From: Collinsella sp. TF08-11AT
Lineage (GTDB): Bacteria > Actinomycetota > Coriobacteriia > Coriobacteriales > Coriobacteriaceae
Direction: 5' to 3'
Assembly: GCF_003437035.1 (NCBI RefSeq)
Contig: NZ_QSRL01000003.1
Coordinates: forward strand, 141,389-178,618
DNA: 37,230 nucleotides
In this document: positions 27,615 to 36,140 of the stretch, piece by piece
Layout: each line of letters starts with the position of its first letter
How positions within the stretch are numbered: position 1 is the stretch's first letter
The notes under the pieces: generated by a model
What the model was told of the DNA's origin: nothing
The model's input: the letters and a program-made list of their open reading frames with translations, nothing else
The model's database searches: none
Translations under genes and position numbers: made by a program

Positions 27615-28553
27615 TTGAAGAATACCGCAAAGTCTAAAATCGCAAAGGCCTTTAAGAGTCCGTCCGAGGCATGGGCCGGTCTCGTTCTGAGGCTATGCCA
27701 AAAGCCCTTCATTTCTGATGAGACCGCCATTAAGGCTGAGTTTCGAGCCTATATGGGCCATACCTTGGATTTGAACAACCCCAAATCTTTTAATGAAAAA
27801 CTTCAATGGCTAAAGCTGCACGATAGAAATCCGCTCTATACAACACTTGTTGACAAATTGGCGGTTAAGGAATGGGTTTCAAGCAAAATTGGGGCCCAGT
27901 ATGTTGTTCCTACCTTGGCGATCTGGAAAGACGTTGACGAGATTGACTTGAACGTGCTTCCCGAGCAATTTGTCATGAAAGCTAATCACTATAGCGGCTA
28001 TGTTGCAATCTGCAGGGATAAAGAAACGTTCGATTTCTCCTATGCGAAAAAGCGCCTTGCCGCGATGATGAAGAAGAATCTTTTTTACTACGCCCGTGAA
28101 TGGCCATACAAGGATGTAAAACCCCTTGTGTTCGCTGAGGAGTACCTTGAGCCGGATGAAACCGGATCAACTGCAGACTATAAGGTATTTTGCTTTTCTG
28201 GGGAGCCCAAGATGATTCAGTTACACAAAGGGCGATACTCTAACCACACACAGGATACTTTTGATCCTCAATGGAATCATTTGGATATTCGTCAGCCAGG
28301 GTATCCGCTTACAGACGTAACCCCGGCCGCTCCCAAACAACTTGAAGAAATGCTACGTCTTTCTAGGATTCTTTCTGCCGGTATTCCCCATGTTAGAGTT
28401 GATTGGTACATCAACCGCGATCAATTAAAACTCGGCGAAATGACTTTCTTCGACGCAAGTGGACTGTGCCCCTTTGAAAAATATGAAGATGATCTCATGA
28501 TTGGGTCGTGGATTGATTTGAACAGGGCGTATTCCGCGAACGGACGTCCGTAA
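27615..28553 (+). CDS. TupA-like ATP-grasp ligase
   Basis: This 312-residue protein belongs to the TupA-like ATP-grasp family, named after a teichuronopeptide gene of an alkaliphilic Bacillus. Family marks are NPKSFNEKLQWLKLHDRNP at 55-73, QFVMKANHYSGY at 118-129, ADYKVFCFSGEPK at 187-199, HVRVDWY at 259-265 and GEMTFFDASG at 274-283. ATP-grasp enzymes activate a carboxylate as acyl phosphate and join it to an amine. In a locus that makes uronic acids, an amide bond between an amino acid and a uronic acid is a reasonable guess. The start is TTG at 27615 with GGAG 7 nt upstream. The stop overlaps the next ATG as TAATG. Confidence 0.87.
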   Translation: MKNTAKSKIAKAFKSPSEAWAGLVLRLCQKPFISDETAIKAEFRAYMGHTLDLNNPKSFNEKLQWLKLHDRNPLYTTLVDKLAVKEWVSSKIGAQYVVPTLAIWKDVDEIDLNVLPEQFVMKANHYSGYVAICRDKETFDFSYAKKRLAAMMKKNLFYYAREWPYKDVKPLVFAEEYLEPDETGSTADYKVFCFSGEPKMIQLHKGRYSNHTQDTFDPQWNHLDIRQPGYPLTDVTPAAPKQLEEMLRLSRILSAGIPHVRVDWYINRDQLKLGEMTFFDASGLCPFEKYEDDLMIGSWIDLNRAYSANGRP

Positions 28554-29674
28554 TGTATTTATTCGAGCGCATGCTGGGCACAGCGACTTTCTTCTTGGTA
28601 TTAATTGTTGCGTGTAATAGCCTATATGTTGCTAATGGCAAACAGATAAAGCAACGCCTGCTTCTCTATATCACAGCGCTTGCTTTCTTAGCATTTATAT
28701 TTATACCGAACCGGGGCGCAGACTTGTCCCGCTTATATTATGCACTCCATCTATATGGAACGATGGATATTTACGATATAGCAAGAGCGTGCTCCCATTC
28801 ATCAACGCCTGTTATGGTCATCTATTTCTGGGCTATTGGAATGTTAAGAGTCGATGCCCTGCTTCCGATGATCTCTTGTGCATTGTTCTATTCACTTGTT
28901 TTTTCTTGTTATTGGGATTTTGCAGAGAGGCTCAAAATCGACGTCAAAATCGTTGCCCTTGCAATTTTTCTTTGCATGAGCTCTGGAATTTTTTTTCAAG
29001 TGATTAGTAATATCAGGTCCTATTTAGCTACGGCGCTTGTATTCAGAGCGTTTTATACGGAACAGTTTACAGGCAGAAGTCCTTTTAAAAACATCCTCTA
29101 CTACTTGGTAGCCGCATTGTTTCATTCGTTCGGACTTGCACTCGTCATTCTAAGAGTTGTCCATATATGCTTCACGAACAGCAAGAATATGCTTCAAAAA
29201 TTGATTTCAACAGCTTTCGTTTTATTAATTATTTTTCTTATGATGCGATATGGCGGTTCGTACTTGAATGCCCTGTCTGACAAGGCGACTGACTATATTG
29301 CTGGCGAATCGTATTTCTATATATGGGAAGTCATTATTCACTCTCTGCAGATTGCCATTACTGTCTATTTGCTTATAAAGCTTTTTAGAATCGACTGTAC
29401 GGTGGATCAAATCGTGCGTAATAACCTTGCTCTGTTTATTGTCCTTATCACAATGGTTGCCGTCATGTCTCTTCCTTTTGACTATTCAATTTTCTTGCGC
29501 ACGTCAGTTCTTCTTTCACTAGTGTCGCCTCTTGTTCTCATGCTTCTAAGTTCAGCCTGGTCAAAAAAGGAGCACGATTGCATTTGTGCGGTTGTATTTA
29601 CATGGTCAACGGTCTCTCTATGTTTGGCTTGCGCTCGTGGTGATCTGAGTAGTTACAAGTTTCTTTTGCTATAG
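28553..29674 (+). CDS. EpsG/Wzy-like polysaccharide polymerase
   Basis: This 373-residue integral membrane protein has roughly ten hydrophobic segments, an early GADLSRLYYALHLYG loop, SNIRSYLATALVFRAFY at about 151-167 and LFHSFGLALVILR at about 188-200. This arrangement is typical of EpsG-family polymerases, which join lipid-linked repeat units on the outer side of the membrane. The ATG overlaps the previous stop by one base. It precedes the flippase gene, as expected for a Wzx/Wzy pair. O-antigen ligase-type activity is a less likely alternative. Confidence 0.78.
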   Translation: MYLFERMLGTATFFLVLIVACNSLYVANGKQIKQRLLLYITALAFLAFIFIPNRGADLSRLYYALHLYGTMDIYDIARACSHSSTPVMVIYFWAIGMLRVDALLPMISCALFYSLVFSCYWDFAERLKIDVKIVALAIFLCMSSGIFFQVISNIRSYLATALVFRAFYTEQFTGRSPFKNILYYLVAALFHSFGLALVILRVVHICFTNSKNMLQKLISTAFVLLIIFLMMRYGGSYLNALSDKATDYIAGESYFYIWEVIIHSLQIAITVYLLIKLFRIDCTVDQIVRNNLALFIVLITMVAVMSLPFDYSIFLRTSVLLSLVSPLVLMLLSSAWSKKEHDCICAVVFTWSTVSLCLACARGDLSSYKFLLL

Positions 29675-29682
29675 GAGTTATT

Positions 29683-34841: not shown

Positions 34842-34880
34842 GTCGTTTTTTATTCCGTTCTTTGACAATTGGAGAATGAC

Positions 34881-36140
34881 ATGAAGATCGCTATCGCCGG
34901 TACCGGCTACGTCGGCCTGTCCCTCGCCGTCCTGCTCTCGCAGCACAATGAGGTGCATGCTCTGGACATCGTGCCCGAGAAGGTCGAGAAGATCAACAAC
35001 TATGTGTCGCCCATCCAGGACGACGAGATCGAGCGATTCCTGGCGGAAGCAAAGGCGGGGGAGCGCGAGCTCGACCTGCACGCCACGGTCGACGTGGCCG
35101 AGGCATATACGGGCGCCGACTACGCCGTCATCGCCACGCCTACCAACTACGACTCGGACAGGAACTTCTTCGACACTTCCTCCGTCGAGGCCGCCATCGC
35201 CGCCGTTCGCTCGGTGAACCCGGACGCCTGGATCGTCATCAAGTCGACGATCCCCGTGGGCTACACCGCGGGGCTTCGCGAGAGGCTGGGCGACAGCAAG
35301 ATCTTCTTCAGCCCAGAGTTCCTGCGCGAGAGCAAGGCGCTCTACGACAACCTGCACCCCAGCCGCATCGTTGTGGGCGCGCCGAAGGAGGATGCCGACG
35401 CCGTCGCTGCCGCCGAGCGCTTCGCACGCCTGCTTGCCCAAGGAGCGGACCCAGCCGAGCTGGAGCGCGTGAACGCCGACGGCACCGTGGGCATCCCGGA
35501 GCTCGTGCTGGGCACCACCGAGGCCGAGGCCGTCAAGCTGTTCGCCAATACCTACCTGGCTCTTCGCGTAGCCTACTTCAATGAGCTTGACACCTACTGC
35601 GAGGTCCGCGGCCTCAACACCCGCGACGTCATCGACGGCGTCTGCCTGGAGCCGCGCATCGGATCGCACTACAACAACCCCAGCTTCGGCTACGGCGGCT
35701 ACTGCCTGCCCAAGGACACCAAGCAGCTGCTGGCCAACTACAGGGACGTGCCGCAGAACCTGATCGAGGCCATCGTGGACGCCAACCGCACCCGCAAGGA
35801 CTTCGTGGCCGACGAGGTGCTGCAGATGGTCTGGGACCGCGTCTACGAGGGTAAGCCGAAGCCGGTCGTGGGCGTGTACCGCCTGACGATGAAGTCCAAC
35901 TCCGACAATTTCCGTGCGAGCTCCATCCAGGGCGTCATGAAGCGCGTGAAGGCCAAGGGCGTGCCCGTGGTGGTCTACGAGCCCACGCTGGACGCGCCGG
36001 AGTTCTTCGGCTCCGAGGTGACCCACGACCTGGAGGCCTTCAAGGCGAAGTGCGACGTGATCGTCGCCAACCGCTGGAGCGATGAGCTCGCGGACGTGGC
36101 GGACAAGGTGTACACGAGGGATCTGTTTAAGAGGGACTAG
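34881..36140 (+). CDS. ugd: UDP-glucose 6-dehydrogenase
   Basis: This 419-residue enzyme oxidises UDP-glucose to UDP-glucuronate using two NAD+. The N-terminal Rossmann loop is AGTGYVGLSLA at 6-16, the central dimerisation part has K219 in EAVKLFANTYLALR, and the catalytic cysteine C275 lies in GYGGYCLPKDT. A C-terminal UDP-binding domain follows with GVYRLTMKSNSDNFR. I start at ATG-34881, with GGAG 7 nt upstream; an in-frame TTG at 34869 overlaps that ribosome binding site. The gene is GC-rich and codon-biased like the first two-thirds of the epimerase, unlike the AT-rich gene between them. It is the last gene of the plus-strand locus. Confidence 0.95.
   Translation: MKIAIAGTGYVGLSLAVLLSQHNEVHALDIVPEKVEKINNYVSPIQDDEIERFLAEAKAGERELDLHATVDVAEAYTGADYAVIATPTNYDSDRNFFDTSSVEAAIAAVRSVNPDAWIVIKSTIPVGYTAGLRERLGDSKIFFSPEFLRESKALYDNLHPSRIVVGAPKEDADAVAAAERFARLLAQGADPAELERVNADGTVGIPELVLGTTEAEAVKLFANTYLALRVAYFNELDTYCEVRGLNTRDVIDGVCLEPRIGSHYNNPSFGYGGYCLPKDTKQLLANYRDVPQNLIEAIVDANRTRKDFVADEVLQMVWDRVYEGKPKPVVGVYRLTMKSNSDNFRASSIQGVMKRVKAKGVPVVVYEPTLDAPEFFGSEVTHDLEAFKAKCDVIVANRWSDELADVADKVYTRDLFKRD

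Follow-up and report, generated by a model that had tools for sequence, protein, structure and literature searches.

We describe a polysaccharide cassette at positions 19790-36140 of the window, the whole stretch of 37,230 nucleotides analyzed here from Collinsella sp. TF08-11AT (contig NZ_QSRL01000003.1), which encodes two different ATP-grasp ligases, one TupA-like and one CarB-like. Our preferred reading, held with a probability of roughly 0.58, is that the cassette makes a Wzx/Wzy-type surface polysaccharide in which the repeat carries two different amide decorations, each installed by one of the two ligases. The initial annotation had proposed that both ATP-grasp enzymes form amides on uronic acid carboxylates; its observation was right and its interpretation half right, as the proposal is supported for the TupA-like protein, which co-occurs with the UDP-sugar dehydrogenase Ugd and has a reported Campylobacter counterpart, and is not supported for the CarB-like ligase, which keeps other company. 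The genes, their order, the conserved partnerships and the ATP-grasp fold predicted for the CarB-like protein are direct results, from which we infer the two reactions and the order of steps. If the reading is true, this common gut genus bears two chemically distinct amide groups on its surface glycan. Amide decorations alter charge and can alter recognition by phages, antibodies and enzymes.

In the proposed scheme, the PglF- and PglE-like enzymes would produce UDP-2-acetamido-4-amino-2,4,6-trideoxyhexose (UDP-QuiNAc4N). The CarB-like ligase would convert an acid to its acyl phosphate and then join it to the 4-amine of this sugar nucleotide, taking the place of the acetyltransferase PglD, while PLP2 and the GNAT protein would supply or trim the acyl group. 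The sugar phosphate would be passed to undecaprenyl phosphate by the PglC-like enzyme and the chain extended by GTa and GTb. Ugd and the epimerase would provide UDP-glucuronate and UDP-galacturonate (UDP-GlcA/GalA), the TupA-like ligase would activate the carboxylate of the uronate in the growing glycan and attach an amine to it, and Wzx together with the Wzy-like protein would carry out export and polymerisation. The cassette genes, all on the forward strand (+), are as follows.

19790..20344 (+): LoaP-type antiterminator, with which the cassette opens (NCBIfam NF033641, 127.7 bits, cut-off 125)
20425..22305 (+): PglF-like UDP-GlcNAc 4,6-dehydratase with an extra N-terminal part (PF02719, 387 bits; nearest solved chains WlaL, which we take to be PglF)
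22321..23574 (+): PglE-like DegT aminotransferase (PF01041, 273.6 bits; nearest solved chains 1o61 and 4ztc, presumably PglE of Campylobacter jejuni)
23567..24256 (+): PglC-like phosphoglycosyl transferase (PF02397, 197.3 bits; start from the longest open reading frame)
24249..25307 (+): PLP2, a candidate DegT-like pyridoxal phosphate (PLP) enzyme without a Pfam or NCBIfam family of its own, partner of the CarB-like ligase
25313..26503 (+): GTa, GT4-type glycosyltransferase (PF00534, 62.6 bits)
26512..27600 (+): GTb, GT4-type glycosyltransferase (PF13692/PF00534)
27615..28553 (+): TupA-like ATP-grasp amidoligase candidate, 312 residues (PF14305 ATPgrasp_TupA, 189.1 bits, cut-off 25)
28553..29674 (+): probable Wzy-like polymerase, assigned from its place and hydrophobic look only (no Pfam or NCBIfam match)
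29683..31167 (+): Wzx-like flippase (PF13440, 243.2 bits)
31217..32323 (+): CarB-like ATP-grasp ligase (PF02786 CPSase_L_D2, 27.3 bits, cut-off 19.8, scanned as the longer reading frame from 31112)
32316..32867 (+): GNAT acetyltransferase, PseH-like, overlapping the ligase gene (PF13302, 63.5 bits; PseH model 69.5 bits, below its cut-off of 93.1)
32995..34035 (+): NAD-dependent sugar epimerase, probably of the UDP-GlcA 4-epimerase type (PF01370, 196.7 bits)
34035..34841 (+): cassette protein without a Pfam or NCBIfam match
34869..36140 (+): Ugd, UDP-sugar 6-dehydrogenase, UDP-glucuronate supply (PF03721, PF00984 and PF03720, three UDPG_MGDP_dh domains)

The genes named in the initial annotation (TupA-like at 27615, CarB-like at 31217, GNAT at 32316, the epimerase and Ugd) were all found where it had placed them, with Pfam matches. 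The left half of the cassette (19790-27600) was absent from it and holds the PglF-, PglE- and PglC-like genes, which bear on the role of the CarB-like gene. The name UDP-glucuronate 4-epimerase stands at the level of the Epimerase family, its specificity being a family-level guess with none of the best 25 of 34 NCBIfam models above its cut-off. The nearest NCBIfam model of Ugd is UDP-glucose 6-dehydrogenase (NF011631, 552 bits, below its cut-off of 757), and the protein passes the nucleotide-sugar dehydrogenase subfamily cut-off with 304.5 against 189.8 bits.

By its neighbourhoods, the CarB-like ligase belongs to an amino-sugar module, and its neighbours are mostly other than uronate genes. 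A total of 64 CarB-like loci were fetched (loci are cited by L numbers), of which 59 had a resolved gene set as the greedy choice of open reading frames lost the ligase in some; L064 gave no gene matches. Within 6 kb of the ligase, a PglC-like gene was found in 53 of the 59 loci, PLP2 in 37, a PglE-like gene in 34, a PglF-like gene in 16, a GNAT gene in 12 and TupA in one, all of these counts being lower bounds with many contigs short. The next gene downstream is GTa-like in 11 loci. Four loci (L008, L027, L048 and L058) have the order PglE, ligase, PglC, where the ligase occupies what is presumably the place of PglD in Campylobacter. A Ugd-like match of at least 50 bits was found in only four CarB-like stretches (L001, the locus of 'Collinsella sp. 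WCA1-178-WT-3', L021, L025 and L061); this was counted over all 64, since the choice of reading frames had also lost the Ugd of L001, and many of the stretches reach contig ends. Co-occurrence of the ligase genes with uronate genes, which the initial annotation had set as the test of its proposal, was observed for TupA and not for the CarB-like gene.

These neighbourhoods bear on a teichuronopeptide-like alternative in which the two ligases both work on the uronate, attaching an amino-acid or peptide chain to it. The two ligase genes and the uronate genes do share a single cassette and TupA tracks Ugd; moreover the glucuronate polymer of alkaliphilic Bacillus, whose TupA gave the family its name, pairs poly-glutamate with polyglucuronate in teichuronopeptide, as far as the available part of the source goes (PMC8153356). 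We nevertheless consider this alternative very unlikely, as 60 of the 64 CarB-like stretches (many reaching contig ends) have no Ugd match of at least 50 bits, the CarB-like family accompanies PglC, PLP2 and PglE, and neither a CarB-like nor a PLP2 match was found in the TupA loci of the class described below (0/27 for each). In addition, the amines described for TupA-like enzymes in the accessible parts of the reports are amino-alcohol phosphates, and no poly-glutamate synthesis gene was recognised among the cassette genes scanned. A single peptide pathway for both ligases was rejected because the TupA and CarB-like neighbourhoods differ.

The bacillosamine pathway of Campylobacter consists of PglF, PglE, PglD and PglC. 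The PglF-, PglE- and PglC-like genes are consecutive both there and in the window, whereas the window has an ATP-grasp gene and PglD was not found in the cassette; Pfam and NCBIfam scans of the cassette genes gave no hexapeptide or NeuD-type acetyltransferase. By analogy, the CarB-like ligase probably acylates the 4-amine of UDP-QuiNAc4N, replacing PglD. A NeuD/PglD model scored above its cut-off in three of 23 CarB-like genomes and, as far as coordinates tell, never at the ligase locus: one site lies 2.3 Mb away, another on a contig of more than 260 kb (that of the locus being 23 kb) and the third at a place that would overlap PglF if the contig were the same. Weaker and mostly partial NeuD/PglD matches, such as any hexapeptide-repeat protein gives, were present in 22 of the 23 genomes. 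A similar replacement is described, in the parts of the sources available, for Neisseria PglB2, an ATP-grasp/phosphoglycosyl transferase responsible for a 4-glyceramido sugar (PMC11130364, PMC6959607). The likeness, which is one of description and not of sequence, is that an ATP-grasp domain replaces the acetyltransferase next to a phosphoglycosyl transferase; PglB2 is a fused protein serving a protein O-glycan, whereas the ligase in the window is separate, has PLP2 and GNAT companions and stands in a Wzx/Wzy-type cassette.

The ligase, PLP2 and PglC form a conserved module that is uncharacterised and is the more surprising half of the locus. If the reading is right, it replaces the uronate assignment of the CarB-like ligase with a better amino-sugar one and draws attention to a strongly conserved, uncharacterised enzyme. 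PLP2 itself had no match in Pfam, NCBIfam or a PDB sequence search, one of three scanned homologues touches PF01041 (E 0.0089), and at least 90% of 32 sequences share its residues D124 and K146. The ligase might instead make a donor by coupling two small molecules, for example the PLP2 product and an amino acid, and the GNAT protein or another enzyme would then transfer it. PLP2 being the nearest upstream gene in 24 of the 59 loci would agree with this, as would the L-amino acid ligase RizA as the top Foldseek match of the ligase model; we regard it as quite improbable, given that 22 loci have no PLP2 within 6 kb, 17 of them still with a PglC-like gene, and that GNAT comes within that distance in only 12.

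Further ATP-grasp genes occur near the CarB-like ligase. Clustering of the genes in 63 loci gave cluster c4 in 35 (three members scanned, all three ATP-grasp), c9 in 18 (three scanned, all PF14397), c16 in eight (two scanned, both PGA_cap) and c14 in ten, the last having no Pfam match and a TSGSTGTPF stretch that we take to resemble adenylating enzymes. Proteins of about 440 residues with an SGSTGTPF stretch and no Pfam match were observed beside ATP-grasp and PGA_cap genes at L001:5348-6667 and L008:12922-14289. Amino-acid permeases (L018:2591-3991 and L020:5798-7228) and a sodium:solute symporter (L023:6743-8161) each lie between ATP-grasp genes and the CarB-like module.

The GTG at 31217, the start given for the CarB-like gene in the initial annotation, is preferable to the 31112 of the longest reading frame because most family members start there. 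The nearest NCBIfam model is the carbamoyl phosphate synthase-like PRK12767.1-1 (68.8 bits, below its cut-off of 218), to which the protein, judged by sequence, appears related but divergent. A search gave matches at E <=0.001 in 1,561 of 4,603 candidates, the best 120 of the 1,561 being 72-98% identical, and the CarB-like proteins of the 64 loci are 53-77% identical. Record titles place the loci in Collinsella, in many Bacillota and Bacteroidota and in one Treponema, which we take to represent several phyla. At E <=1e-20 the gene was found in only one of 65 genomes of the reference family, and among 149 genomes of the order of L043 it was found only in the centre genome, with one further match of 25%. 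Sporadic occurrence together with strong conservation would fit an enzyme that moves horizontally and keeps a fixed substrate. A tblastn search of plasmids gave no match.

The CarB-like protein is predicted to have the ATP-grasp fold. A PDB sequence search with the protein or its alignment returned only biotin-carboxylase-type chains (E 0.0018-0.0063). The structure model built from 78 sequences had a mean confidence (pLDDT) of 86.9, against 51.6 from 21 closely alike sequences, and it matched whole ATP-grasp enzymes including RizA, GAR synthetase, PylC and 2pn1. Of these, GAR synthetase couples glycine to an amine on a sugar. The fold is common to GAR synthetase, PylC, RizA and the CarB-like protein, although identity is only 12-17% among the matches listed and the substrates differ. 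Given that the scheme holds, the acid placed on QuiNAc4N would slightly more probably be an amino acid than glycerate, an amino acid being favoured by the permeases, the GNAT gene and the fold kinship with amino-acid ligases. The locus presents a variant of known chemistry. We suggest only tentatively that the CarB-like ligase, PLP2 and GNAT make up an undescribed route to aminoacylated or otherwise acylated QuiNAc4N, the sugar with which gut bacteria from several phyla would start their surface glycans, and that this route is combined here with a TupA uronamide into two amide decorations. Literature searches on amino-acyl QuiNAc4N genes and on Collinsella glycan ligases found no paper on the point among the results listed, a negative that reaches no further than these searches.

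Within the class TupA is strongly linked to uronate genes, and elsewhere moderately so. The PF14305 match of the window TupA spans positions 1-239 of 241. Among 30 aligned sequences, the window included, it keeps the invariant residues K122, H125, E175, D188, K190, R261, D263 and E275, and it has Y126 in the glycine-rich loop where 27 of the 30 have D. PDB sequence searches with TupA alone or the TupA alignment gave no match, and a literature search for TupA-like ATPgrasp found no paper. Family and class surveys (65 and 296 genomes) were made around a reference genome having 23% of sampled 31-letter words in common with the window. PF14305 was above its cut-off in seven of the 65 family genomes and 26 of the 296 class genomes, so that the word 'unusual', which the initial annotation applied with regard to gut actinobacteria, is doubtful where the TupA gene is concerned. 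The CarB-like gene is rare in the same family.

Ugd (E <=1e-60) was found in 64 of the 296 class genomes, 20 of the 26 with TupA against 44 of the 270 others (Fisher p 2.9e-10; the two listings were matched by hand). The control gene PF04321 (RmlD type, E <=1e-40) showed 19 of 26 against 156 of 270 (p 0.09). In 15 of the 26 genomes TupA shares a contig with Ugd, at a distance of no more than 15 kb. G300 in the class, as well as G629 and G634 in the second order described below, fell under the PF14305 cut-off and were counted as TupA-negative.

The 27 TupA loci of these 26 genomes were also compared with 20 phosphoglycosyl-transferase loci without TupA, which were hand-picked from the top of the list for the same order, no TupA, short transferase reading frames and enough contig; control stretches began roughly 2 kb ahead of the transferase and ended 18 kb beyond it, whereas TupA loci were roughly centred on TupA. 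A Ugd-like match of at least 50 bits was found in 21 of 27 TupA loci against five of 20 controls (p 4e-4), and one of at least 200 bits in 15 against one. Close relatives of the window epimerase (at least 400 bits) occurred in ten TupA loci and one control (p 0.01), whereas the whole epimerase cluster was unenriched (11/27 against 7/20). Wzx, used as a control, was present in 8/27 against 7/20 and PglF-like genes in 9/27 against 4/20. By gene clustering, the dehydrogenase was the only clearly TupA-enriched family besides TupA itself (p 4e-4); a cluster of 177-residue proteins, whose L101 member is a hexapeptide-repeat protein, reached p 0.04, and two clusters were commoner in controls (1/27 against 6/20 and 0/27 against 5/20).

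Ten of the weaker dehydrogenase matches, six from TupA loci and four from controls, were scanned and all ten exceeded the TIGR03026 nucleotide-sugar dehydrogenase cut-off. The nearest model was TviB in three of the six from TupA loci and UDP-ManNAc dehydrogenase in all four controls; the differing types indicate that TupA accompanies several kinds of uronate-forming enzyme. TupA may also encounter N-acetyl-aminouronates. TviB-like UDP-HexNAc 6-dehydrogenases were observed in TupA loci at L118:8420-9736, L125:12749-14266 and L133:10666-12204, directly adjoining TupA in L118 and L133. L101:4889-6233, on the reverse strand, holds two overlapping TupA reading frames, the second being of 172 residues and covering the C-terminal half of PF14305.

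A second order, centred on the Ruminococcus genome of L003, had TupA above the cut-off in 12 of 187 genomes, and a nucleotide-sugar dehydrogenase was present in nine of these 12 against 73 of the 175 others (p 0.026). Three observations weigh against our reading of two separate amide decorations. In this second order TupA and a dehydrogenase lie within 10 kb in only three of the 12 genomes (G524, G533 and G549), TupA-like genes occur in five of the 64 CarB-like stretches with no Ugd match, and hexapeptide-repeat proteins (cluster c7) are present in 20 of 63 CarB-like loci. The first two would also agree with TupA merely travelling with uronate genes through a shared cassette history while acting on something else. 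That explanation seems unlikely to us, as the linkage within the class is seen in three families (f1, f3 and f5), TupA directly adjoins dehydrogenases of different types in L118, L121, L124 and L133, and the RmlD and Wzx controls showed no significant link.

A uronamide is thus the likely product of the window TupA by analogy with Campylobacter jejuni, where the TupA-like domain of Cj1438 (Cj1438C) is reported to form an amide at the C6 carboxylate of glucuronate, as is its homologue in HS19.11 (61% identity), the amines given in the available portions of the reports being serinol phosphate (serinol-P) and ethanolamine phosphate (ethanolamine-P) (PMC11800379, PMC13276843). The reaction of HS19.11C is described with serinol-P (PMC13276843, in part available). 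A uronate amide therefore has a direct precedent, but one that does not require an amino acid as the amine; the amine that the initial annotation took to be an amino acid or peptide may accordingly be of another kind in the window, the precedent amines being these two phosphates. Likened by description and not by sequence, both cases have a TupA-like ATP-grasp in a polysaccharide locus with UDP-glucuronate supply. Cj1438C and HS19.11C are each part of a fusion with a GT2 transferase, and enzymes for serinol-P or ethanolamine-P and a phosphatase serve them, whereas the window TupA is a separate protein of 312 residues for which no such partner was recognised.

That the window TupA uses a phosphorylated amino alcohol exactly as in Campylobacter is suggested by the same domain type and a reported reaction (in the parts of the sources available), and appears unlikely. 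No PLP enzyme was TupA-enriched among the clusters present in at least five of the 47 loci (PglE-type 6/27 against 3/20), and none of those clusters was recognised as a phosphatase, the unlabelled ones being mostly not identified. An amine drawn from the pool, an amino acid for instance, fits no less well. As for the HAD gene at 17505, it was rejected as the phosphatase of the amidoligase because it belongs to the chromosomal backbone, which is 94% alike in L111.

At the nucleotide level the window was compared with 56 loci of relatives. The left end (LoaP, PglF and PglE) is 90-93% identical in L001 (20120-23573), L101 (19050-23578) and L110 (19318-23575), the Ugd end (34847-36147) is 91-94% identical in L001, L101 and L108-L113, and the epimerase is 78-86% alike in six loci. 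Between 23578 and 32994 no match of more than 200 bases was found in any of the 56. From these alignments the cassette looks like a unit swapped between strains, with shared ends around a variable middle. The presence of Ugd inside Collinsella is then possibly due to the shared frame that bears it, which matters for the co-occurrence statistics. In L110, a sister Collinsella cassette with the same PglF-PglE frame, a PRK12767-type ATP-grasp gene with a PylC-like N-terminus directly follows PglC (L110:4916-5887; 494.6 bits to PRK12767.1-5). Judged by sequence, different ATP-grasp ligases seem to be exchanged beside PglC.

The region 19790-36140 has the layout of a single operon headed by the LoaP antiterminator. 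Neighbouring genes overlap by a few bases if their starts are right (23567/23574, 24249/24256, 28553 and 32316/32323), which suggests a single transcript. GC content per gene is 0.40-0.48 from PglC (23567) to GNAT (32867), against 0.61 in the flank at 4000-17000, and is closer to the flank in PglF and PglE (0.51-0.52), the epimerase (0.575) and Ugd (0.644). The protein at 34035-34841, between the epimerase and Ugd, has 268 residues and a gene GC of 0.415. A protein of 214 residues without a Pfam family is encoded on the opposite strand directly past the cassette (36307-36951), and a reading frame of 318 residues, also without a Pfam family, lies at 2735-3691 in a stretch of lower GC (about 0.45-0.50). 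Upstream of the cassette, a tRNA-Ala(GGC) gene was identified by ARAGORN at 18937..19012 on the forward strand.

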